DNA of 22,792 nucleotides from a virus, in IMG/VR virus record IMGVR_UViG_3300030106_006202, positions 1-22,792 of that record; one strand, 5' to 3'. The notes below the pieces were generated by a model that was not told the origin of the DNA, ran no database searches, and saw nothing but the letters and a program-made list of their open reading frames with translations. Each line of letters opens with the position of its first letter. Positions within the stretch are counted from its first letter, which is position 1. Both the position numbers and the translations under genes were made by a program. Positions 2 through 8,765 of the stretch are shown here, in pieces.

Positions 2-451
2 AAAGTTATGGATGTAAATGCAAAAGGCATATACATGATGTCCAGAGCATGCTTGCCATCATTGATTAAAAACAGAGGAACAATATTAAATATTGTCAGC
101 AATGCTGCTCACATGCCAATGACTTGTTCTTTGGCTTACAATGCATCAAAAGGTGCTGCTCATATAATGACTTTGCAAATGGCTCGTGAACTAACAAGAA
201 GGCATGGCATAACAGTTTTTGGTATAGCACCAAACAAATTATCAGGCACTGGTATGAGCAAATCAATAGATGAACAAGTTGTTAAAACTCGTGGTTGGGC
301 AAATGATTATGCTCGACAATATCAATTAGATGGATTGTTAACAGGTGAAGAAACACCACCCCAAAGATTAGCAGAGTTCATTGCATATTTATTACAATCA
401 AAAGAGCATCACAAATATTTAACAGGATGCATATTACCATATGGAGCTTAA
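2..451 (+). CDS. Short-chain dehydrogenase/reductase (SDR), 5'-truncated by the window edge
   Basis: NAD(P)-dependent oxidoreductase of the SDR family; substrate unknown. The reading frame is open to the first complete codon (Lys-Val before the Met at 8), and that Met sits inside the family's VMDVN segment, so it is not the true start and about 100 N-terminal residues including the glycine-rich cofactor loop lie outside the window. Counting from the Met at 8, the full catalytic tetrad is present: Asn4 (VNAKG), Ser31 (NIVSNAA), Tyr44 and Lys48 (YNASK). A Pro-Asn (IAPN) follows where SDRs usually have PG, and the C-terminal GCILPYGA matches the family's closing strand. It is followed with a short overlap region by the VOC gene and appears to be part of the same operon as the replication genes. 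Probable auxiliary metabolic gene; the substrate is not deducible. Confidence 0.85.
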   Translation, partial: KVMDVNAKGIYMMSRACLPSLIKNRGTILNIVSNAAHMPMTCSLAYNASKGAAHIMTLQMARELTRRHGITVFGIAPNKLSGTGMSKSIDEQVVKTRGWANDYARQYQLDGLLTGEETPPQRLAEFIAYLLQSKEHHKYLTGCILPYGA

Positions 452-452
452 T

Positions 453-929
453 ATGAAATTTACTATTGAACAAATCGCTATTTGCCCAGAGAACCCAGTT
501 AAGGCAAAAAAGTTGTTATCTGAAATAGGTGCAGTGGATTGGGTTGAGGATCATGTTGTTGCGACTGGTGCAGTTTTTGATGTTGTTGGAACAAATGAAG
601 CAGACTTGTCTTTTAATTATGATATATTCTCTGGCAAAGAGTTTGAGATTTTAAATTATACTGAAGGCAATAACTGGATGGATACAGATAAAAGAGGAAG
701 AAACTCTGTAAGTCATCTTGGTATGCACTGCACAAATGCTGAACTTGCTTTGTGGAAAACATTTTTTGAAGAAAGAAATATAGGTATCGCACAGGAAGTT
801 TTTACAGACTCTCATACAAATGTTGCAATAGCAGGCAAAAGATCTTACAACTATGTTATTTTTGATACCAAAGATATATTGGGTGTTGATTTAAAATTTA
901 TTGTCAGGATAGATAATGATAATATTTGA
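453..929 (+). CDS. VOC (glyoxalase/bleomycin-resistance fold) family protein
   Basis: About 158 residues with the two-module layout of vicinal-oxygen-chelate proteins. A first strand IEQIAIC opens module one, which ends near FEILNY; a second strand HLGMHC (His88, His92) opens module two, which ends ILGVDLKFI. His and Glu at these strand positions are the usual metal ligands of the family, so a metal-dependent isomerase, dioxygenase or binding role is possible; the substrate is unknown. The start was set at 453 rather than 441 because GGAG at 443-446 lies six bases before it, and this site sits over the last codons of the upstream dehydrogenase. The 3' end overlaps the exonuclease gene by 14 bases. 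Family assignment is by pattern only; an uncharacterised phage protein with a similar fold is the alternative. Confidence 0.65.
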   Translation: MKFTIEQIAICPENPVKAKKLLSEIGAVDWVEDHVVATGAVFDVVGTNEADLSFNYDIFSGKEFEILNYTEGNNWMDTDKRGRNSVSHLGMHCTNAELALWKTFFEERNIGIAQEVFTDSHTNVAIAGKRSYNYVIFDTKDILGVDLKFIVRIDNDNI

Positions 930-1449
930 TCTTGAGACAACAGGATTGCCAAAAGCTGAAGGCAGTGATTTAGAAATGCAACCAAAGATAATTGAATTTG
1001 GTGGTATTAAAGTTGATGATGACTTTAATAAAATAGACAGCTTTGAGTTTTTGTGTAATCCTGGACATCCATTAGATCCAAAAATAATAAAGATAACAAA
1101 AATAACAGATGAGATGTTAAAAGATCAAAAACCTTTTATTGCTCATTATAAAAAACTTGCTGAATGGTTTTGTGGTCAGAGTTCAATTGCAGCACACAAT
1201 CTATCCTTTGACAGACAGATATTAAAATTTGAATTAGAGAGAATAGATAAATTAACAAAGTTCCCATGGCCATATAATCATATCTGCACAGTTGAGATAG
1301 GTCAGTCAGTTTGGGGAAAGATGAGAAAGCTGGGTGATATATATGAAGATTTGTTTAATAAAAAGATTCAAGGTGCTCACAGATCTTTGGTTGATGTTGA
1401 AGCAACAATAGAAATATTGAGGTGGTACAGAAAAGAAGGACACATATAA
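916..1449 (+). CDS. DnaQ-like DEDDh 3'-5' exonuclease
   Basis: A 177-residue exonuclease of the RNase T/DnaQ superfamily, expected to remove 3'-terminal nucleotides from DNA using two metal ions. All motifs are visible: ExoI FDLETTGL (Asp5, Glu7), ExoII HNLSFDRQ (Asp99) and ExoIII with His155 and Asp160 (HRSLVD), which places it in the DEDDh class. The length matches the catalytic domain alone, with no extra interaction domain. AGGA at 906-909 lies six bases before the ATG, inside the VOC gene. The family C DNA polymerase follows 63 bases downstream and lacks an exonuclease domain of its own, so this is the likely proofreading subunit acting in trans, as epsilon does for alpha in bacteria. 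That partnership is inferred from context; a repair or host-DNA degradation role is possible. Confidence 0.9.
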   Translation: MIIFDLETTGLPKAEGSDLEMQPKIIEFGGIKVDDDFNKIDSFEFLCNPGHPLDPKIIKITKITDEMLKDQKPFIAHYKKLAEWFCGQSSIAAHNLSFDRQILKFELERIDKLTKFPWPYNHICTVEIGQSVWGKMRKLGDIYEDLFNKKIQGAHRSLVDVEATIEILRWYRKEGHI

Positions 1450-1511
1450 TGGTCACTAGATGTGCAAAAGATATTTGTCATGTATCAAACTACACAGTAA
1501 AATGGCAATAA
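1449..1511 (+). CDS. Possible 20-codon coupling ORF before the DNA polymerase
   Basis: A 20-codon frame fills almost exactly the gap between the exonuclease and polymerase genes. Its ATG overlaps the exonuclease stop as TAATG, it has AAGGA at 1436-1440 with an eight-base spacing, and its TAA ends one base before the polymerase ATG at 1513. The polymerase itself has no clear ribosome site just upstream. The peptide has two cysteines and no recognisable motif. The arrangement suggests a leader that delivers terminating ribosomes to the polymerase start. A chance ORF of this length cannot be excluded. Confidence 0.35.
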   Translation: MVTRCAKDICHVSNYTVKWQ

Positions 1512-1512
1512 T

Positions 1513-4326
1513 ATGCTAAATATTAGATTAAGAACTGAATATTCATTTCGCAAAGCATTTGGTCATACCAAAAAAGTTGTTGAAGCATCTGCAGGTGAAG
1601 CAGTTGGTATATGTGATGCTGGTACTTGGGGTCATGTTGCTTTTGATAAGGCATGTAAAGAATTAAATAAAAAACCATTGTTTGGTACTGAAATATCATT
1701 TGTTGAAGATTCAACTGCAAGAGAGAAACAGCCAGCAAATCAAATGGCTTTTATTGCAAAGAGCAATAAAGGATTAAAAGAACTTTATGAACTTGTAACA
1801 AAAAGCACAGAAAAAGAAAATTTTTATTACTTCCCCAGACTTTCATATTTTGACCTGTTTGATATATCAGATGAGTTAATCATATTGAGTGGAACACATC
1901 CTGCATGGGGAATGCTTCCTTTGGCCAGAAAAAATAATTTATATATTGAGATAAATCCTATGAGTTCTCGCAAGGCATTAGACTTTTGTGAAGCAAAAGG
2001 ATTCAAATGCATATCAACATCTGATAATTATTTCCCAAAAGTTGATGACAGAAAAGGTTATGAAGTTCTTGTTGGTCAGAATAGGATTAACAGAACAGCA
2101 CCAATGCATATATTAAATGAGTGGGAGTTAAAAGATTTAGTTCCTTGGATTCCAGATTCAGCTTTTAAAAATAGCTATGAAATAGCTGATATGTGTAATG
2201 TTGAATTACCACAAGGCTCAATGGTATCATTTGATTCTGAAAAAACTTTAGAAAAACTTTGTATTGAAGGTGCTGTAAAAAGAGAAATAAATTTAAAAGA
2301 TCCAATATATAAAGCGAGATTAAAAAGAGAGATTGATTTAATAGCTGATAAAAAGTTTGAAGATTATTTTTTTGTAATAGCAGATATGATTAATTTTGCC
2401 AAGCAACATATGTTAGTTGGACCAGCAAGAGGATCTTCAGCAGGATCATTGGTTTGTTATTTAACAGGGATAACTGACATCGATCCAATAAAACATGATT
2501 TATTGTTTGAAAGATTTATTGATATAACTCGTGAAGATTTACCTGATATTGATATTGACTTTCAAGATGATAGAAGAGAGATGGTTATAAATTATTTGAG
2601 AGATAAATATGGTGAGGAGAAAGTTGCACATCTAGGAACAATATCAAGATACAAAGCAAAGAGTACAATAACAGAAGTTGCCAAAGAACTTGGTGTTCCT
2701 GCTTGGGAAGTTAATGATCTCAAAGGTGCAATAATAGAGAGAAGTTCTGGGGATGCTCGTGCAGCCATGTGTATAATGGACACATTTAATGACCTCGACA
2801 TTGGGAAAAAAGTTCTGGAAAAGTATCCACAGATGAGAATAGCATCAAAAATGGAAAATCATGCTCGTCACAATGGTGTTCATGCAGCTGCAATAATTGT
2901 GACTGAAGATCCAGTAAGAAAATATTGTTCAGTAAATCAACAATCAGGTGCAGCACAGATTGATAAGATAGATGCTGAGAGCTTAAATTTACTGAAGATT
3001 GATGCTTTGGGATTAAGAACTTTATCTGTTTTGCAAGATATACTTGACCAAGTTGGTTGGCAAAGAGAAGAATTAATAAATTATAGATTAGATGATAAAG
3101 ATGCTTTTGATGTTTTAAATAAAGAAAAATATGCAGGAATATTTCAGTTTGAAGGTTATGCTTTGCAATCATTAACAAGACAAATGCAAATATATGATTT
3201 TGAAGATATCGCATCAATAACTGCTCTGGCTCGTCCTGGACCATTAACTTCAGGTGGTACAACACAATATATTCAAAGAAGAGTTGGTTCTTCACCAATA
3301 GAATATCTTCACCCAATGACTGAAGAAGTTACAAAAGTCACAAAAGGTGTTGTTGTTTATCAGGAACAGGTTATGAATATTGCTCGTGATGTTGGCAAGT
3401 TAAGTTGGGAAGATGTATCTCAACTTCGCAAAGCAATGAGCAAAAGTTATGGTGAAGAATTTTTTGACAGGTATTGGCAAAGATTTAAAGTTGGTGCTGA
3501 AGAAAATAATATCGATGAAGAACAAGCATTAAAAATATGGAAAAATATTAACACAATGGGATCTTGGGCATTTAATCGTAGTCACGCAATATCTTATGGA
3601 CTTGTCAGTTATTGGTGCTGTGTTTTAAAAAGTAAATTTCCATTAGAATTTGCAGCTGCATGTTTGAGAAATGTTAAGGATGATGAACAAGGAGTCAAAC
3701 TTTTAAGAGAAGTTGTAAGAGAGGGTCTTGTATATAAACCATATGATAAATATAAATCAACAAGTAATTGGTCAGTTCAAGATGGCCAATTGATAGGTGG
3801 ATTGATTGGTATAAAAGGTGTTGGTCCAAAAATGTCCGAAGATATAATAAATAGAAGAGAGCTCAATCAACCATTGACACCAAGACAGAATAATCTTTTA
3901 GACAATGGGGAAACACCATATGATGATATTTTTGAGTGTGAAAGAAGATTTGGTCATATTAAAAAAGAACCAGCAAAACATAATATAAAAACAGCCATAA
4001 CAGATATACAAAATCTTGAAGCTGACAATCCTGGAGAGTTTGTTGTTTTTGGAAAGCTCATTGAAAAGAATTTAAGAGACTTGAATGAAACAGTAAACTT
4101 GGCAAAAAGAGGTGGTCGCAGAGCAGAGACTAATAACTTATGGTTGAACATGAAATTTGAAGATGACACTGGTCCAATTTTAGCAGGCATCAATAGATGG
4201 GCATATCCAAAGTTGGGCAAACCAATAGTTGAGGAGGGCAAAATTGGTGATTGGTATCTATTAAAAGGCAAAATAAATAAAGGATTTAGAAAATTAAATG
4301 TAGAGAAATGGCGTAAGCTGACATAA
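1513..4326 (+). CDS. dnaE-like: Family C DNA polymerase (DNA polymerase III alpha-like, DnaE type)
   Basis: Replicative DNA polymerase of 937 residues, shorter than the roughly 1,100-1,200 of bacterial DnaE. Order of parts: a degenerate PHP domain (about 1-230); the palm with GPARGSSAG near 303-311, PDIDIDF at 344-350 (catalytic Asp345 and Asp347) and KIDALGLRTL (third catalytic Asp497); FNRSHAISYG near 687-696; a helix-hairpin-helix (GIKGVG) near 765; and an OB-like region at about 835-937. The C-terminal tau-binding domain seems absent. In the PHP region the metal histidines are replaced: LRTEYS instead of HxHSEYS, CDAG instead of TDHG, SDNY instead of NDVH. PHP-linked nuclease or pyrophosphatase activity is therefore unlikely. 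Proofreading would come from the separate exonuclease upstream. The stop codon merges with the promoter module at 4325. Confidence 0.95.
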   Translation: MLNIRLRTEYSFRKAFGHTKKVVEASAGEAVGICDAGTWGHVAFDKACKELNKKPLFGTEISFVEDSTAREKQPANQMAFIAKSNKGLKELYELVTKSTEKENFYYFPRLSYFDLFDISDELIILSGTHPAWGMLPLARKNNLYIEINPMSSRKALDFCEAKGFKCISTSDNYFPKVDDRKGYEVLVGQNRINRTAPMHILNEWELKDLVPWIPDSAFKNSYEIADMCNVELPQGSMVSFDSEKTLEKLCIEGAVKREINLKDPIYKARLKREIDLIADKKFEDYFFVIADMINFAKQHMLVGPARGSSAGSLVCYLTGITDIDPIKHDLLFERFIDITREDLPDIDIDFQDDRREMVINYLRDKYGEEKVAHLGTISRYKAKSTITEVAKELGVPAWEVNDLKGAIIERSSGDARAAMCIMDTFNDLDIGKKVLEKYPQMRIASKMENHARHNGVHAAAIIVTEDPVRKYCSVNQQSGAAQIDKIDAESLNLLKIDALGLRTLSVLQDILDQVGWQREELINYRLDDKDAFDVLNKEKYAGIFQFEGYALQSLTRQMQIYDFEDIASITALARPGPLTSGGTTQYIQRRVGSSPIEYLHPMTEEVTKVTKGVVVYQEQVMNIARDVGKLSWEDVSQLRKAMSKSYGEEFFDRYWQRFKVGAEENNIDEEQALKIWKNINTMGSWAFNRSHAISYGLVSYWCCVLKSKFPLEFAAACLRNVKDDEQGVKLLREVVREGLVYKPYDKYKSTSNWSVQDGQLIGGLIGIKGVGPKMSEDIINRRELNQPLTPRQNNLLDNGETPYDDIFECERRFGHIKKEPAKHNIKTAITDIQNLEADNPGEFVVFGKLIEKNLRDLNETVNLAKRGGRRAETNNLWLNMKFEDDTGPILAGINRWAYPKLGKPIVEEGKIGDWYLLKGKINKGFRKLNVEKWRKLT

Positions 4327-4362
4327 GTCATTGTTTTTATTGAGATCTTTTTTAACTTTCTT
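4325..4362 (+). repeat. 38-bp inverted repeat, left copy
   Basis: Aligns without gaps to the reverse complement of 8423-8460 with 33 of 38 positions identical by hand count. The first 13 bases and the last 17 (CTTTTTTAACTTTCTT and the base before it) are identical. It begins within the polymerase stop codon and lies just upstream of the -35 element. Confidence 0.85.
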
Positions 4363-4433
4363 TAAAAATAATACTTTACTTTTCTGGGCAAAAGAGATAT
4401 CATCTATTCATAGAGTTAAGAAAGGAAATAATT
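4325..4433 (+). promoter_or_regulatory. Promoter/leader module, rightward copy (sigma70-like)
   Basis: The only sizeable non-coding gap on the left half. It contains TTTACT at 4375-4380, a 17-base spacer and TATCAT at 4398-4403, a good sigma70-type -35/-10 pair, preceded by a T-rich block at 4347-4363 and the word AAGTCATTG at 4325. The leader ends in AAAGGA (4421-4426) before ATG 4434. The same elements in the same order occur inverted at 8460-8361 ahead of the leftward operon, which strongly supports function. Whether a phage-encoded regulator binds the conserved upstream block is unknown. Confidence 0.75.
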
Positions 4434-4925
4434 ATGACAAAACATACTCCAAAAAGAAGACAAATTACTGACTGGGTTGGTAAGCAAAGAAAAACATGGT
4501 GTGGTCCATATGCGATCGCAGTTGTTTGTGGTACTGAATATGAGCCAGCATATCAAGTGGCAAAAGCAGTTCGTGGCAAAAGGCATGCCAAAGGAATCAC
4601 TGTTACTCAGATGATTAAGTCTTGCAAAAAATTAGGTGTCACTGGTGTAAATAAAAAACTTGATAAAAAAATGAAGTTATCAAAATGGCTTGACCAACAC
4701 ACTCTTCCAAATAAAGTTTATGTTGTCAATACCACACGTCATTTTATAATTGTTGATACAAGAGATTGGACAACTATTGATAACCAGCAACCAGAATGGA
4801 AAGCTGTAACAGCATCCAAGCACATCAACACAATGGTTCATGGTCATTTTATAGTTGATAATCCAAAGTTCGAGACAGCCAAAGATGAATGGCTTTTTGA
4901 ACCACTTGCTGCATCTAGCAAGTAA
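4434..4925 (+). CDS. Papain/C39-like cysteine peptidase-fold protein
   Basis: A 163-residue protein with the hallmark of papain-like peptidases: TWCGPYAIA around Cys23 at the start of a helix, Gln18 five residues before it as a possible oxyanion residue, RHFIIVD with His103 on a strand, and IDNQ (Asp116, Asn117) as the likely third member. The layout resembles C39 bacteriocin-processing peptidases (CG, then HF, then D/N), but there is no transporter or signal peptide, so it should act in the cytoplasm. It is the first gene behind the rightward promoter with AAAGGA seven bases before the ATG, and a terminator follows, so it may be the most highly expressed gene of the unit. The substrate is unknown; a non-catalytic relative is possible. 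Confidence 0.6.
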   Translation: MTKHTPKRRQITDWVGKQRKTWCGPYAIAVVCGTEYEPAYQVAKAVRGKRHAKGITVTQMIKSCKKLGVTGVNKKLDKKMKLSKWLDQHTLPNKVYVVNTTRHFIIVDTRDWTTIDNQQPEWKAVTASKHINTMVHGHFIVDNPKFETAKDEWLFEPLAASSK

Positions 4926-4958
4926 AGGCAATCAAGCCAAACACAAAAGGAGATTTCC

Positions 4959-4990
4959 TGAGCATGAAGTAAAACTGCTCATTTTTTATT
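4959..4990 (+). terminator. Rho-independent terminator-like hairpin
   Basis: TGAGCA (4959-4964) pairs with TGCTCA (4976-4981), with AGT/ACT able to extend the stem across a small bulge, and six Ts follow at 4982-4987. It lies between the peptidase-like gene and the SleB-type gene, so it may reduce read-through to the latter rather than block it, as no promoter is seen in the gap. Confidence 0.6.
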
Positions 4991-5000
4991 GGAGGGATTT

Positions 5001-5423
5001 ATGTTAACAGAATTAGCATGTATGGCAACAGCAATATATTTTGAAGCACGTGGTGAACCAATGGTTGGTCAGGTTGCAGTTGCTCAAGTTATAATGTCAA
5101 GAGTATATGATGAAAGATATCCTGATACAGTCTGTGATGTTGTAAAGCAGGGATATTATTATTCATGGGACAAAACAATACCAATCAGGGACAAATGTCA
5201 ATTTAGTTTTTGGTGCGATGGTAAACCTGAAACGATTAAAGATGAGGATGCATATTTTTGGGCAACAGAAGTTGCTCAAGCAGTTATGGTTGGCACACTT
5301 TACGATACAACACAAGGTGCGACTCATTATCATGCTTATTATGTTCAACCATCTTGGAGCAAAAAATTTACCAGAACAGTAAGGATAAATGATCATATAT
5401 TTTATAGATGGGAGAATGATTAA
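5001..5423 (+). CDS. SleB-type cell-wall hydrolase
   Basis: A 140-residue protein matching the hydrolase_2/SleB catalytic domain, a peptidoglycan-cleaving (lytic transglycosylase-like) fold. Visible signatures: AIYFEARGE with the expected catalytic Glu15, VAQVIMSRV, CQFSFWCDG, and GATHYHA followed by a conserved PxW near the C-terminus. The ATG at 5001 was chosen because GGAGG at 4991-4995 sits five bases upstream; a TTG at 4989 would place this site inside the gene. There is no signal peptide or cell-wall-binding domain. A separate T4-type endolysin is encoded in the late operon (18681-19142), so this enzyme may serve another step, such as virion-associated wall opening, or simply be a second lysin. 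It overlaps the next gene as TAATG. Confidence 0.85.
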   Translation: MLTELACMATAIYFEARGEPMVGQVAVAQVIMSRVYDERYPDTVCDVVKQGYYYSWDKTIPIRDKCQFSFWCDGKPETIKDEDAYFWATEVAQAVMVGTLYDTTQGATHYHAYYVQPSWSKKFTRTVRINDHIFYRWEND

Positions 5424-5617
5424 TGACAAAATTTTCAGATGAATTTATTAACAAAGTAAAACAACATTGGGATGACAATAAAGGAAAACCTTTAGGAAAT
5501 AAAGTTGTTGGTATTCATAGAGAATATAAAAAATTAAAAAAATTTGGGATGCAAGATTTAGCAGAGCATTTTAATATAACTTTTGCTCAAGCAACAAGGA
5601 TTATTTATCACAAATGA
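5423..5617 (+). CDS. Small HTH-like protein, unknown function
   Basis: 64 residues, rich in lysine. The C-terminal third (DLAEHFNITFAQATRII) reads like a helix-turn-helix of the kind found in small regulators and in homing-endonuclease tails. The ATG overlaps the stop of the SleB-type gene (TAATG), and GGAG at 5411-5414 provides the ribosome site. It ends inside the nuclease gene that comes from the opposite strand, overlapping it by 17 bases. A DNA-binding role is plausible but the motif is short, and I recognise no family. Confidence 0.6.
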   Translation: MTKFSDEFINKVKQHWDDNKGKPLGNKVVGIHREYKKLKKFGMQDLAEHFNITFAQATRIIYHK

Positions 5618-6014
5618 CTTTTGACAAATCAAGCCAATCTTCTTTTGTCATATTTCCTTTTTTATGCCAATGCAAAAGATCAGAGAATTTTGTTTTTGAA
5701 ACTCGATTGTAAACTTCTTTAGAATTAGAGCCATCGATTAAACCAATAAAGTTCCTGCCAATACGAATTAAAACCCAACAATGACCTTTGTGGCTTTTAT
5801 ATTCTTTCAACCAAATGACCTGATTCAGTGCCAATCCTGTAGAAACTCTTTTCTCTGGCCAATGATTGAGATACTTTAATTCTATCCAACCAGACTCACC
5901 ATCTTTATTAATATAATGAATATCTGGCATTCCTCTCATAACTCTGTTTTCAACTCTATACATTTTCAAAGGCAAAGAAGTTCTCAACAAATGCCAGAAA
6001 TTTTTTTCACTCAT
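5601..6014 (-). CDS. VRR-NUC-like PD-(D/E)xK nuclease
   Basis: A 137-residue nuclease of the PD-(D/E)xK superfamily, probably VRR-NUC type. The core is GMPDI (Asp31), followed by WIELK (Glu45, Lys47), with a later LNQVIWL segment carrying the family's conserved Gln. Stand-alone VRR-NUC proteins are known in phages, often beside SNF2 helicases, and are thought to cut branched DNA during replication and recombination. The start at 6014 was chosen over 6026 because GGAG (6024-6021) lies six bases upstream, over the last codons of the helicase gene, whose stop is one base before this ATG. It is the last gene of the leftward operon; its 3' end overlaps the convergent HTH-like gene. No terminator is visible at the end. 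Confidence 0.8.
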   Translation of the reverse strand: MSEKNFWHLLRTSLPLKMYRVENRVMRGMPDIHYINKDGESGWIELKYLNHWPEKRVSTGLALNQVIWLKEYKSHKGHCWVLIRIGRNFIGLIDGSNSKEVYNRVSKTKFSDLLHWHKKGNMTKEDWLDLSKVICDK

Positions 6015-6015
6015 A

Positions 6016-7716
6016 TTATTCTCCATTATTTAAAAAGACTGATCTCGGATCTTTAGTTATCGCATCAGCAAGATTCTTTTTATCTCGCAATGCTTCTATT
6101 ATTTTTGAATCAATTGTTCCTTTTGCTTCAATATCTATATATGTTACATTCTTTGTAGTTCCTATTCTGTGACATCTGTCTTCAGATTGCAATCTTGTTT
6201 CAAGGTCAAAACTATTAGAATAATAAATAGCATAATCTGCAGCAGTCAATGTTAAACCAATGCCACCAGATTGAGGTTGGCCAATAAAGTATTTTATTTT
6301 GGGATCATTTTGAAATCTATCAACTGCAGTTTCTCTTTCATCTGTTGGAATATCCCCATAATAACTAACAGCTGACTCACCTAATGCCTGTCCTATGGCT
6401 CTTATATCAGCTTTAAATCTTGCCCATATGATAACTTTTGACTGTATCTCACCAAGAATGCTTATTAAAGCTGATAGACGAGGATTGTCAGCATTGATCA
6501 TTTGAATGCCATCTTCAGTTGGAAACCAATTACAAGTTATTTGTTGCAACCTTAAAAACCTTGTTATTGCTTCTGGTGCTGATACTGTTTTGCCTTCAAG
6601 TTCTGCTATGTATTCTTTTTGTAAATCCTTATAAATTTTTTGTTGATCAGATGTCAACTTTATAGCATATCTTTGATATATCTTTTTAGGCAGATCCAAA
6701 CAATCTTTTTTAAGGACTCTAAAACTATGACCCTCAATGTTCTTTGTTAATTCATCAATGTTTTGATAAGATACTATCTCTCTATTATCAAAACCACCCA
6801 TCACACAATATCTTGCCCTGAAAGAATAAAAACTATCATATCCAAGAATATTAGGATCTAAAAATTTAAACTGACTATAAACATCCTCTGGACCTTTTGT
6901 AACAGGTGTGCCAGTTAATATCCTGCGATATTTAGCATTTTTAGAAAACTTTGTTATCATCTTTGTTCTTTTTGCTCCTGGTTTTTTGATCCTAGAACTT
7001 TCATCAACAACCAACATAACATTGTGCGATGATAATATTTTCATCATATAAAATACAGCAACACTGCTAACAAATGCTTCAACATTAAAAGAGAACACTT
7101 TAAGACAGTTTTCAGCACCTATAACAGCATCAAATTTTTCCCTGTGCTTTTTTATGGTATTCTGCCCTGACTTGTAGTATATGCTCTCATATGGGCACCA
7201 ATCAGGCATATGTACAGGAAGTTCTTTGCTCAACCAGTTTCTGTGAACACCATTTGGTGCAATAACAACCAAAGCATTAATTTTATTATTTGCATATAAA
7301 TATGCAGCATTGTCGATTATAACTTTACTTTTTCCTGTGCCTTGTTCCATCAAAAGACCAAATGCTTCTTTATCACGTGACATGTAAAATGCTTTTCTCT
7401 GATGATCAAAAGGTTTTGTTTTAAATTTAAAATCATCATTAGTTGGCAACACTTCAACTTTAGCTGAACGAGTATTTTCTGCCTCAATTAAAAGATCAAC
7501 ATATTTTTCTAATATTGGCTTGGCTTCATCTGACCAAGTTGCATCTGGCCAATATTTTTGTATCCTGCTTATATTGGCACTGGTGGGATCAAATAAAAGA
7601 TCCCGACCAACCCATTTTTTATATCCAGGAAGACTAGACAGCTTTTCAATAGATGTGCTGTCCAGCTTTACTTTAGCAACACAATACTTGCCAAATTCTG
7701 CTTTTTCAATATGCAT
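6016..7716 (-). CDS. SNF2-family superfamily 2 helicase/translocase
   Basis: A 566-residue ATP-dependent DNA translocase. An N-terminal segment of about 75 residues resembles the HARP-like lead domain of annealing helicases (LPGYKKW and following). The motor then shows Walker A EQGTGKS (near 123), motif II VVDESS (DESS rather than DEAH, near 233), motif III LTGTP (near 267), motif V GGIGLTL (near 484) and motif VI with QSEDRCHRIG (near 509). These are diagnostic of SNF2. It likely remodels forks or strips proteins in phage replication or recombination, together with the nuclease encoded directly downstream. The start at 7716 is preferred because it overlaps the upstream stop as TAATG with GGGGA six bases away; Met codons at 7728 and 7740 would extend into the upstream gene. 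Confidence 0.9.
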   Translation of the reverse strand: MHIEKAEFGKYCVAKVKLDSTSIEKLSSLPGYKKWVGRDLLFDPTSANISRIQKYWPDATWSDEAKPILEKYVDLLIEAENTRSAKVEVLPTNDDFKFKTKPFDHQRKAFYMSRDKEAFGLLMEQGTGKSKVIIDNAAYLYANNKINALVVIAPNGVHRNWLSKELPVHMPDWCPYESIYYKSGQNTIKKHREKFDAVIGAENCLKVFSFNVEAFVSSVAVFYMMKILSSHNVMLVVDESSRIKKPGAKRTKMITKFSKNAKYRRILTGTPVTKGPEDVYSQFKFLDPNILGYDSFYSFRARYCVMGGFDNREIVSYQNIDELTKNIEGHSFRVLKKDCLDLPKKIYQRYAIKLTSDQQKIYKDLQKEYIAELEGKTVSAPEAITRFLRLQQITCNWFPTEDGIQMINADNPRLSALISILGEIQSKVIIWARFKADIRAIGQALGESAVSYYGDIPTDERETAVDRFQNDPKIKYFIGQPQSGGIGLTLTAADYAIYYSNSFDLETRLQSEDRCHRIGTTKNVTYIDIEAKGTIDSKIIEALRDKKNLADAITKDPRSVFLNNGE

Positions 7717-8360
7717 TACAGTCCCCATCTTTCTGCACATATTGGTCCAATGCCTTTTTCGATACTACCATGATTTGTTAAATCTCTACCACAAGCAGAA
7801 CAATTACCAGTCCTTTTACCATAAGCAACAGCAGAACCGAGTGGATCTTTAGCAATCTCTTGCAACTTTTCGAGAGTTCCTTCAGGTGCATTAAAAGGTA
7901 AAAAATAACCACCAGTCACTTTACCAGCATACTCACCATCAACTTTAACATAGATGGCACCAGCATTTACTCCAGAATCTGGAGCTCTAGATAAAACAAT
8001 ATTATCAACACGAAATTTAGGACTTTTAATTGCTTCATGTGCTTTGTCAAAAATTTTCTTAACATTGCTCAAATCAATAGAAACAATATTACTTTGCCTT
8101 TCCTCTTTATTCTTTTTGATTTTCATTAACATAGCACTGGCAGCAATCATCTGCTTTTCAGACAAAGAGCCTTTAATTGCAATTTGATCAATCAATGATG
8201 CAGCAAAAGAGTTCCAAGATGAAATTTCTTTAAGAGCATCAAATATTTTTTTATTGTCTGCATCCATACAAAATTTTTGAGCTTTAAGTTCACTCGCTCC
8301 TAAAAATTTTCTTTCATGATATTCGTTAATTTCTTTGATTGCATTCATAATTCTTGTCAT
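7716..8360 (-). CDS. Zinc-ribbon protein with DUF6011-like C-terminus
   Basis: A 214-residue protein. The C-terminal 30 residues (CSACGRDLT, then SIEKGIGPICAERWG) match the DUF6011 pattern: a compact zinc site with CxxCGRxL and GIGPxC signatures, common in phages and mobile elements and of unproven function. A middle region (GAIYVKVDGEYAGKVTGGYF) looks beta-rich; the N-terminal half is helical and charged. The start was moved to 8360: AAAGGA lies seven bases upstream and the MT start matches the opposite copy of the promoter module at 4434, whereas the ATG at 8378 would put the ribosome site inside the gene. It is the first gene of the leftward operon and overlaps the SNF2 helicase as TAATG, suggesting a nucleic-acid role. 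Function not known. Confidence 0.75.
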   Translation of the reverse strand: MTRIMNAIKEINEYHERKFLGASELKAQKFCMDADNKKIFDALKEISSWNSFAASLIDQIAIKGSLSEKQMIAASAMLMKIKKNKEERQSNIVSIDLSNVKKIFDKAHEAIKSPKFRVDNIVLSRAPDSGVNAGAIYVKVDGEYAGKVTGGYFLPFNAPEGTLEKLQEIAKDPLGSAVAYGKRTGNCSACGRDLTNHGSIEKGIGPICAERWGL

Positions 8361-8460
8361 AATTTTTTCCTTTCTCATTTAATTATTAATAGATTATCTC
8401 TCTTTTTTATTCAAAAGTAAAGAAGAAAGTTAAAAAAGAATCTAATTAAAACAATGACTT
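8361..8460 (-). promoter_or_regulatory. Promoter/leader module, leftward copy (sigma70-like)
   Basis: Read leftward: AAGTCATTG from 8460, the T-rich block at 8438-8423, TTTACT at 8421-8416, a 17-base spacer, GATAAT at 8398-8393, then a leader ending with AAAGGA before ATG 8360. It matches the module at 4325-4433 element for element, with the same -35 sequence, the same spacer length and a 20-of-21 match across ribosome site and start. It separates the end of the late operon (stop at 8463) from the leftward cassette operon. Confidence 0.75.
8423..8460 (-). repeat. 38-bp inverted repeat, right copy
   Basis: Reverse-complement partner of 4325-4362 (33 of 38 identical). Here only one base separates it from the -35 hexamer, against twelve in the left copy. 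An AT-only inverted repeat (TAATTAA/TTAATTA) also begins here, at the end of the late operon, followed by a T-run; it could weakly terminate late transcription. Confidence 0.85.
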
Positions 8461-8462
8461 AA

Positions 8463-8765
8463 TTAATCAAACGCATCTTTTATGCTTTTTATTACATTTT
8501 TTAATGTAAATGGCTTTTCATTTGGTCTGTATTTACATTTTATTTCTCTTGGACAATCTACATTTCCTGCACTCATATCAATATATTCATTCCATTGTGT
8601 GTAGTTTGCTCCTACATAAACACAGATATGTTGATTATTGCTCCTCATTTGCTTCGCCAATCTACAGGTTGTGTGTTCTCTGTCTCTGGCAAAAACAACT
8701 ATTGCTAATATAGATATTACAGCAATAAAAATAAGAATGTAATATATTATCCGAATAAAACACAA
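8463..8765 (-). CDS. Small membrane-anchored cysteine-rich protein
   Basis: About 100 residues, no family recognised. One hydrophobic segment (about residues 5-25) is followed by a charged outer domain with four cysteines (TTCR, HICV, VDCP, IKCK) that could form two disulfides in the periplasm, plus a lysine-rich C-terminus. There is no ATG near the front; TTG at 8765 is the listed start and AGGA lies eleven bases upstream, so the exact start is uncertain and a non-ATG codon somewhat further upstream is possible. It is the last gene of the late operon, after the internal virion protein genes. Spanin-like or virion-associated roles are conceivable but unsupported. Confidence 0.6.
   Translation of the reverse strand: MCFIRIIYYILIFIAVISILAIVVFARDREHTTCRLAKQMRSNNQHICVYVGANYTQWNEYIDMSAGNVDCPREIKCKYRPNEKPFTLKNVIKSIKDAFD

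Follow-up and report, generated by a model that had tools for sequence, protein, structure and literature searches.

A candidate phage replicase made of a DnaE-type polymerase with a lost PHP metal site and an adjoining DEDDh exonuclease

The locus and its gene pair

The virus record IMGVR_UViG_3300030106_006202 is a stretch of 22,792 bases, analyzed at its whole length and called here the window, in which the plus strand carries two genes arranged head to tail: one for a DEDDh 3'-5' exonuclease and, following it, one for a DNA polymerase III alpha subunit of the DnaE type (Table 1). An earlier reading of these letters (the original prediction) had placed a polymerase of this kind directly behind a proofreading exonuclease, and the corresponding families, PHROG_405 and PHROG_192, were indeed both found there, adjoining on one strand. 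The window is a fragment: a polymerase 100% identical to its own is encoded on a contig of 53,766 bases. The longer contig encodes a terminase, a portal protein, an AEP-type primase, a UvrD/Dda-like helicase, ThyX, and a polynucleotide-kinase-type phosphatase, so that a tailed phage of ~54 kb is the most likely source.

Table 1. Features of the window discussed in the text (aa, amino acids; pLDDT, predicted local distance difference test; pTM, predicted template modeling score)
Feature	Coordinates	Strand	Details
DEDDh 3'-5' exonuclease gene, 177 aa	916–1449	+	PHROG_192 "DNA polymerase exonuclease subunit," E 4e-43; PF00929, E 1.5e-28; model pLDDT 96.8
DEDDh active-site codons	928–1395	+	D5 928–930, E7 934–936, D99 1210–1212, H155 1378–1380, D160 1393–1395
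DnaE-type DNA polymerase III alpha gene, 937 aa	1513–4326	+	PHROG_405, E 4e-243; AlphaFold model, mean pLDDT 90.0, pTM 0.82
PHP domain, ~residues 1–230, dead metal site	1513–2202	+	Residues 1–231 of the model match the alpha-epsilon chimera structures 4gx8/4gx9
Catalytic aspartates	2545–3003	+	D345 2545–2547, D347 2551–2553, D497 3001–3003
OB-fold domain at the C-terminus	4030–4326	+	Model strands 841–935; OB-fold structural matches over ~823–937
FabG-like short-chain dehydrogenase gene, truncated in its 5' part by the window edge	8–451	+	PHROG_3142; no replication role implied
Gene for a 162-aa protein, family unassigned	441–929	+	Same-position genes in XcP1 and WFH 54% and 53% identical
Small PHROG_2165 protein gene adjoining the helicase	5601–6026	-	XcP1 homolog 31% identical over 91 residues
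SNF2-type helicase gene	6016–7740	-	PF00176, PHROG_62; Pseudomonas phage PB1 helicase 35% identical

The polymerase

The polymerase matched the Pfam families DNA_pol3_alpha, finger, and PHP, and scored above the cut-off of TIGR00594. Residues 1–937 of its model align with residues 6–1073 of Escherichia coli alpha and with residues 7–1122 of Thermus aquaticus alpha, and its domains follow the DnaE form, with a PHP domain that carries no inserted exonuclease, the core, and an OB fold C-terminal to the core. The three catalytic aspartates, all of which had been said to be kept, are indeed present: D345, D347, and D497 align with D401, D403, and D555 of E. coli and occur in each of the 52 aligned rows (window included).

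The PHP metal site, on the other hand, is altered at seven of its nine positions, which read R5, R7, K14, A36, E60, Q77, T128, D171, and Y173 where an intact site has the signature HHDHEHCDH. The resulting string, RRKAEQTDY, does not agree with HHDHEH[C/H]DH, the metal-site signature used in PMC12926913 for an active PHP domain. The original prediction had described the loss of the metal histidines to R, A, and Y; these replacements are real, although they undercount the changes. No intact metal site was found, and the domain, as judged by sequence, is disabled as proposed. Of the 52 aligned rows, 48 have R or K at position 7, and each of the nine columns varies.

In E. coli alpha, tau is bound by the last domain. 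The phage protein ends at the OB fold, before that domain, and its model aligns with E. coli alpha only as far as residue 1073, so that the earlier statement that the C-terminal tau-binding part had been lost held as well. Nine phage polymerases of the window type that were compared also stop at the OB fold or continue with a short tail. The missing domain counts against a full cellular alpha, not against a DnaE-type polymerase.

No clamp-binding motif was seen in the polymerase at the E. coli position, and divergent motifs may be present. Strings resembling Q-x-x-L-L occurred in 21 of the 52 polymerases without one conserved place. The QxxLL string at ~residues 791–795 was considered as a clamp motif and set aside: it recurs in close relatives and is absent from most distant ones. 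As to a clamp encoded by the phages themselves, no DnaN match (PF02767) exceeded the cut-off in 32 records, a weak match in record G007 (E 9.5e-5) falling below it.

The exonuclease

The compact DEDDh exonuclease described in the original prediction is present just upstream, with its active site intact: D5, E7, D99, H155, and D160 are invariant in all 47 aligned phage exonucleases. Its model was matched by DinG (Z 21.5), by E. coli epsilon (Z 21.2, over residues 8–180 or 8–182), by TREX1 (Z 20.1), and by PolC (Z 19.4). Structure did not place the exonuclease in a single subfamily. The best named match by sequence was the PolC exonuclease domain (TIGR01405, E 1.3e-24, which is below the whole-protein cut-off of that model), and further PolC-type matches were 2p1j (E 1e-9) and 9qrn, the top row of the Foldseek search.

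Recurrence of the pair

Among the matches listed for IMG/VR, 80 close loci were taken as relatives of the window. The exonuclease gene was found upstream of the polymerase and on the same strand in 79 of them, within 763 bases in 78 and at 3.8 kb in one; the 80th is a contig cut inside the polymerase. Failure of the two genes to co-occur in relatives, the outcome that would have spoken against a pair, was thus not observed. Together with the long open frames and the very low family E-values, this recurring gene order places the pair beyond chance, and the proposal of a compact pair, made of an exonuclease and an alpha subunit whose PHP domain is disabled, is supported both by the residues of the sites and by this co-occurrence. 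A tblastn search of the 50,697 INPHARED records returned matches to the polymerase in 1307, all below 60% identity, and matches to the exonuclease in 432.

Distances between exonucleases and between polymerases are correlated (0.81 over 47 loci, with none of 2000 permutations as high). This correlation shows joint inheritance, not contact.

PHP state and DEDDh genes across viral records

In a survey of 234 records, the nine PHP positions were read and the whole record was searched for PF00929, a family that was found by this search in 10 of 14 control genomes. The contigs were drawn mostly by greatest length from capped lists of matches, and one virus may be counted in both INPHARED and IMG/VR. 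A DEDDh match was found in 23 of 36 records made up of 26 INPHARED phages and 10 IMG/VR contigs (10 of the 80 close loci). It was found in 49 of 50 contigs (from 80) of a scan with the palm peptides of the full-length window alignment, the miss being L141, whose polymerase lies 663 bases from the contig end, and in 0 of 50 contigs (from 80) of a scan with intact-PHP phages, in which one of the two search peptides was a PHP peptide, a bias toward intact PHP. Two later scans, which used palm alignments only and gave two lists of 80, contributed matches in 16 of 50 and 1 of 50 contigs, or 98 distinct contigs after removal of the duplicates L420 and L369.

Altogether, the PHP site was dead in 86 records with a DEDDh match and in 18 without, and intact in 3 with a match and in 117 without; the remaining 10, all without a match, lacked the N-terminal PHP motifs, could not be read, and were set aside. 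When only contigs of at least 40 kb were counted, the corresponding numbers were 47, 3, 2, and 97, with 9 unreadable. Of the 18 records with a dead site and no DEDDh match, 15 are contigs below 40 kb, mostly with the PHP signature of the second clade described below. Because the surveyed rows are related, Fisher tests on this table were not counted as evidence. In the surveyed phages, a dead PHP site and a separate DEDDh gene mostly go together. Most bacteria that have DnaE1 only possess a single candidate proofreader, either PHP or DnaQ (PMC12926913), and phages appear to follow this rule.

Some of the surveyed polymerase genes differ in form. Contig L394, classed as viral, encodes a DEDDh exonuclease fused N-terminally to DnaE (4207–8601) with a partly broken PHP site (HHQTEQNNY); this contig and L304 group with bacterial DnaEs and may be bacterial DNA. 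In L322, L324, L330, L350, and L321, the polymerase frame starts inside the PHP domain and leaves the first metal motifs outside, for which an intron, an intein, or a frameshift is possible. The DnaE of Klebsiella phage p4727 is in two parts with a 236-aa open frame between them (L099, 2683–6938), and that of Microbacterium phage Haunter is encoded by two adjoining genes (L094, 1857–5205).

Phylogeny and divergence of the PHP domain

In a palm-only tree of 117 rows, the window belongs to a clade of 41 rows (support 100), all with a dead PHP site and an exonuclease. The neighboring clade has an intact PHP site and no exonuclease, and its named members infect Actinobacteria. This placement held in both trees to which bacterial DnaEs were added (FastTree with 81 bacterial rows, IQ-TREE with 25). 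In the IQ-TREE analysis, the window and intact clades join at 99, the wider phage group is also supported at 99, and the DnaEs of Actinobacteria adjoin it together with one Saprospiraceae row. Proteobacterial DnaEs, whose PHP site is dead too, sit elsewhere. The comparison with bacterial DnaE groups that had been suggested as a check therefore came out against a proteobacterial affinity and placed the window clade beside intact-PHP phages.

A second clade with a dead PHP site, formed by Rhizobium phage RHph_X66 and its kin, is separate (support 100, IQ-TREE), and in the exonuclease tree its exonucleases form a group of their own, apart from those of the window clade (supports 98 and 95). On this basis, PHP loss within phages probably happened twice. 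With E. coli DnaQ as its sole outside reference, the exonuclease tree does no more than suggest that the two lineages were recruited separately. In the second clade, the exonuclease gene lies at least 20 kb from the polymerase in the records in which positions were compared. Contig L107 and its kin, from the same clade, show recurring non-metal PHP patterns, such as ARETRFDPF and SRETRYDPF; a pattern that recurs in this way, rather than decaying at random, hints at a structural or binding role.

At 45%–50% palm identity, the PHP domains are 26% identical within the window clade (337 pairs) and 26% within the RHph clade (11 pairs), against 42% within the intact clade (141 pairs), a descriptive comparison in which the metal positions were left out and the pairs are not independent. 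The OB folds of the same pairs are alike in identity (0.288, 0.285, and 0.293, respectively). The dead PHP domains look to be under relaxed constraint, their faster divergence being as expected if an enzymatic job had been lost.

Interpretation and alternatives

We consider it likely that the two genes encode a replicase of the phage's own, in which a DnaE-type alpha subunit synthesizes DNA and a stand-alone DEDDh exonuclease proofreads for it in place of the PHP site. The alpha subunit would copy the phage DNA, and the separate exonuclease would act on the primer ends of the polymerase. The PHP metal site, presumably the proofreader in related intact-PHP phages, would have been lost here, with the domain remaining as a scaffold. 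The two proteins may be in direct contact, perhaps at the dead PHP domain, with the exonuclease using a surface other than the tail of E. coli epsilon, and any clamp used would be that of the host.

Several observations weigh against this interpretation. In E. coli epsilon, the clamp-binding motif precedes the alpha-binding segment. Only 10–23 residues follow the last catalytic aspartate in the 47 phage exonucleases, against 76 in E. coli DnaQ, so that both this motif and the PHP-binding segment are missing. It is this C-terminal segment by which epsilon binds the PHP domain of alpha (PMC3919608), and the phage exonuclease, lacking an E. coli-type segment, has no known docking element. Exceptions to the survey pattern exist in both directions: L280, L289, and L304 combine a dead PHP site and a length of at least 40 kb with no PF00929 match, whereas an intact site accompanies a DEDDh match in contig L352 and a gene whose annotation reads DNA polymerase exonuclease subunit or DnaQ-like in Bacillus phage Taylor (L434, 1142–1771) and Streptomyces phage MeganTheeKilla (L435, 999–1487). 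The 117-row palm tree contains only 4 changes of PHP state, of which two are single bacterial-looking contigs (L304 and L394), and 6 changes of exonuclease state. Among 4 independent pairs, the exonuclease changed in the opposite direction in 2.8 on average and in the same direction in 0.0, and was unchanged in 1.2 (sign test, p = 0.25). Counted in records, the association between PHP state and exonuclease is strong; counted in events, it is weak. Finally, the lower identity of the dead PHP domains could partly reflect a poorer alignment of this domain.

The missing tail would also suit an exonuclease that serves repair, recombination, or the breakdown of host DNA, next to a polymerase that goes unproofread or borrows the DnaQ of the host. 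The fold, which is about equally similar to DinG, TREX1, and epsilon, agrees with such a role, as does the distance between the two genes in the second dead-PHP clade. In the window clade, however, the exonuclease adjoins the polymerase and is inherited with it, and it is rare where the PHP site is intact (3 of 120), a rarity that a general repair role would not predict; we regard this explanation as unlikely. Far less probable still is that the changed PHP domain has retained a different enzymatic function, for example as the pyrophosphatase proposed for E. coli DnaE (PMC4822814). E60 and D171 are indeed retained, but only two of the nine metal residues survive in the window, compared with four at the E. 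coli site (R H D F D H G D R). In addition, no metal column is invariant, and the domain diverges as if relaxed.

The polymerase might instead have been acquired from a proteobacterial host that used DnaQ and in which the PHP site of DnaE1 was dead beforehand, so that the pattern would come from hosts. E. coli DnaE and other sampled bacterial DnaEs do have dead sites, and the named hosts of the 50 best polymerase matches are proteobacteria. Nevertheless, in both palm-only trees with bacterial rows, the window clade joins the intact-PHP phages, with the proteobacterial rows elsewhere, and the closest of the 588 bacterial candidates listed matches the palm at 36%–37% identity, against 53%–56% for the full-length polymerase of the more remote IMG/VR phage relatives. 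A host-derived polymerase was rejected on these trees, and we give this origin hardly any weight.

Beyond the replicase itself, a wider proposal may be made more tentatively, and we hold it to be somewhat doubtful: that the proofreader of viral DnaE was swapped at least twice, from PHP to a different DEDDh lineage each time and independently of proteobacteria, and that these exonucleases, which lack the tail, dock on the dead PHP domain through a contact of a new kind, in a PolC-like arrangement of two proteins. Neither the phage-wide relation between PHP state and DEDDh genes nor the double loss was found in our literature searches. A 2011 work by Kazlauskas and Venclovas, which reportedly treats viral replicases, may already cover the PHP state, and priority is therefore not claimed. 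The pair is ordinary among phages with a polymerase III alpha subunit, so the locus alone is of modest interest; it is the survey that makes the matter testable. Both states of the polymerase, an intact PHP site with no DnaQ and a dead one accompanied by DnaQ, occur in phages with small genomes, which can be grown and edited. Such a set allows one to ask whether PHP was the ancestral proofreader, what changes when a DEDDh exonuclease takes over, and how an exonuclease without a tail is held at the primer end.

Neighboring genes

The pair is part of a conserved block. Upstream of it lie the short-chain dehydrogenase (SDR) gene and the gene for the 162-aa protein, which had no Pfam, NCBIfam, or PHROG match. 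A 223-aa copy of the SDR in contig L433 is 51% identical to the XcP1 neighbor, and over the three pairs compared, the SDR and the 162-aa protein show 51%–54% identity. The 162-aa protein is better conserved toward XcP1 and WFH than are the polymerases of the same phages (37%–38%). Past the polymerase, positions 4434–4925 gave a weak C39-peptidase-like match (E 3.3e-5), followed by a cell wall hydrolase gene (4989–5423). The sign of the guanine-cytosine skew flips at ~5000–6000, where gene direction turns from plus to minus.

Comparison with known systems

The closest known systems are the alpha-epsilon pairs of PB1 and Banzai (Pbunavirus), WFH (Wifcevirus), and XcP1 (Carpasinavirus). Pseudomonas phage PB1, Escherichia phage WFH, and Xanthomonas phage XcP1 have, like the window, adjoining DEDDh and DnaE genes and a dead PHP site. 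The window's order of SDR, 162-aa protein, exonuclease, polymerase, small protein, and helicase is shared with XcP1, WFH, and Luteibacter phage Pluto, the last having one extra small gene before the helicase. PB1 has the same order from the exonuclease to the helicase, with no SDR gene within the stretch inspected. Unlike in PB1, WFH, XcP1, and Pluto, the helicase and the small protein of the window are encoded on the opposite strand from the polymerase. The pairs of these three genera also differ from the window in sequence, with ~37%–41% polymerase identity, and in genome size (62–71 kb vs. ~54 kb). The two closest INPHARED polymerases are those of Vibrio phage vB_ValP_VA-RY-3 and Cronobacter phage Ss1 (44.7% and 43.2% identity), whose genomes of 40–42 kb carry both genes, overlapping by a few bases. 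None of their nine PHP positions is kept, the residues there are unlike those of the window, and their exonuclease is annotated as hypothetical.

Outside this group, the E. coli polymerase III core shares with the window the DnaE fold from PHP to OB, a dead PHP site, and a separate DEDDh exonuclease. It is distant in the palm tree, and the window pair lacks its last (tau-binding) domain and the epsilon tail. In PolC-type polymerase III, the exonuclease is an insert in the PHP domain (PMC3919608), whereas that of the window is separate and its polymerase is of the DnaE type. The DnaE-like polymerases of actinophages belong to the neighboring clade in the palm trees, but their PHP site is intact and a DEDDh gene is rare. 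Mycobacterium tuberculosis DnaE1, which proofreads with its PHP domain (PMC5636811), is a good structural match to the window polymerase (Z 38.8–39.8).

In Pbunavirus, the polymerase and exonuclease have been named as homologs of alpha and epsilon (PMC12390725). Since the pair is found in several phage groups and has appeared in print, its description in the original prediction as unusual in small phages was too strong: it is present in Pbunavirus, in Wifcevirus, and in two phages of 40–42 kb, and the INPHARED matches to its two members are numerous. The locus adds to a known kind of phage alpha/epsilon pair.

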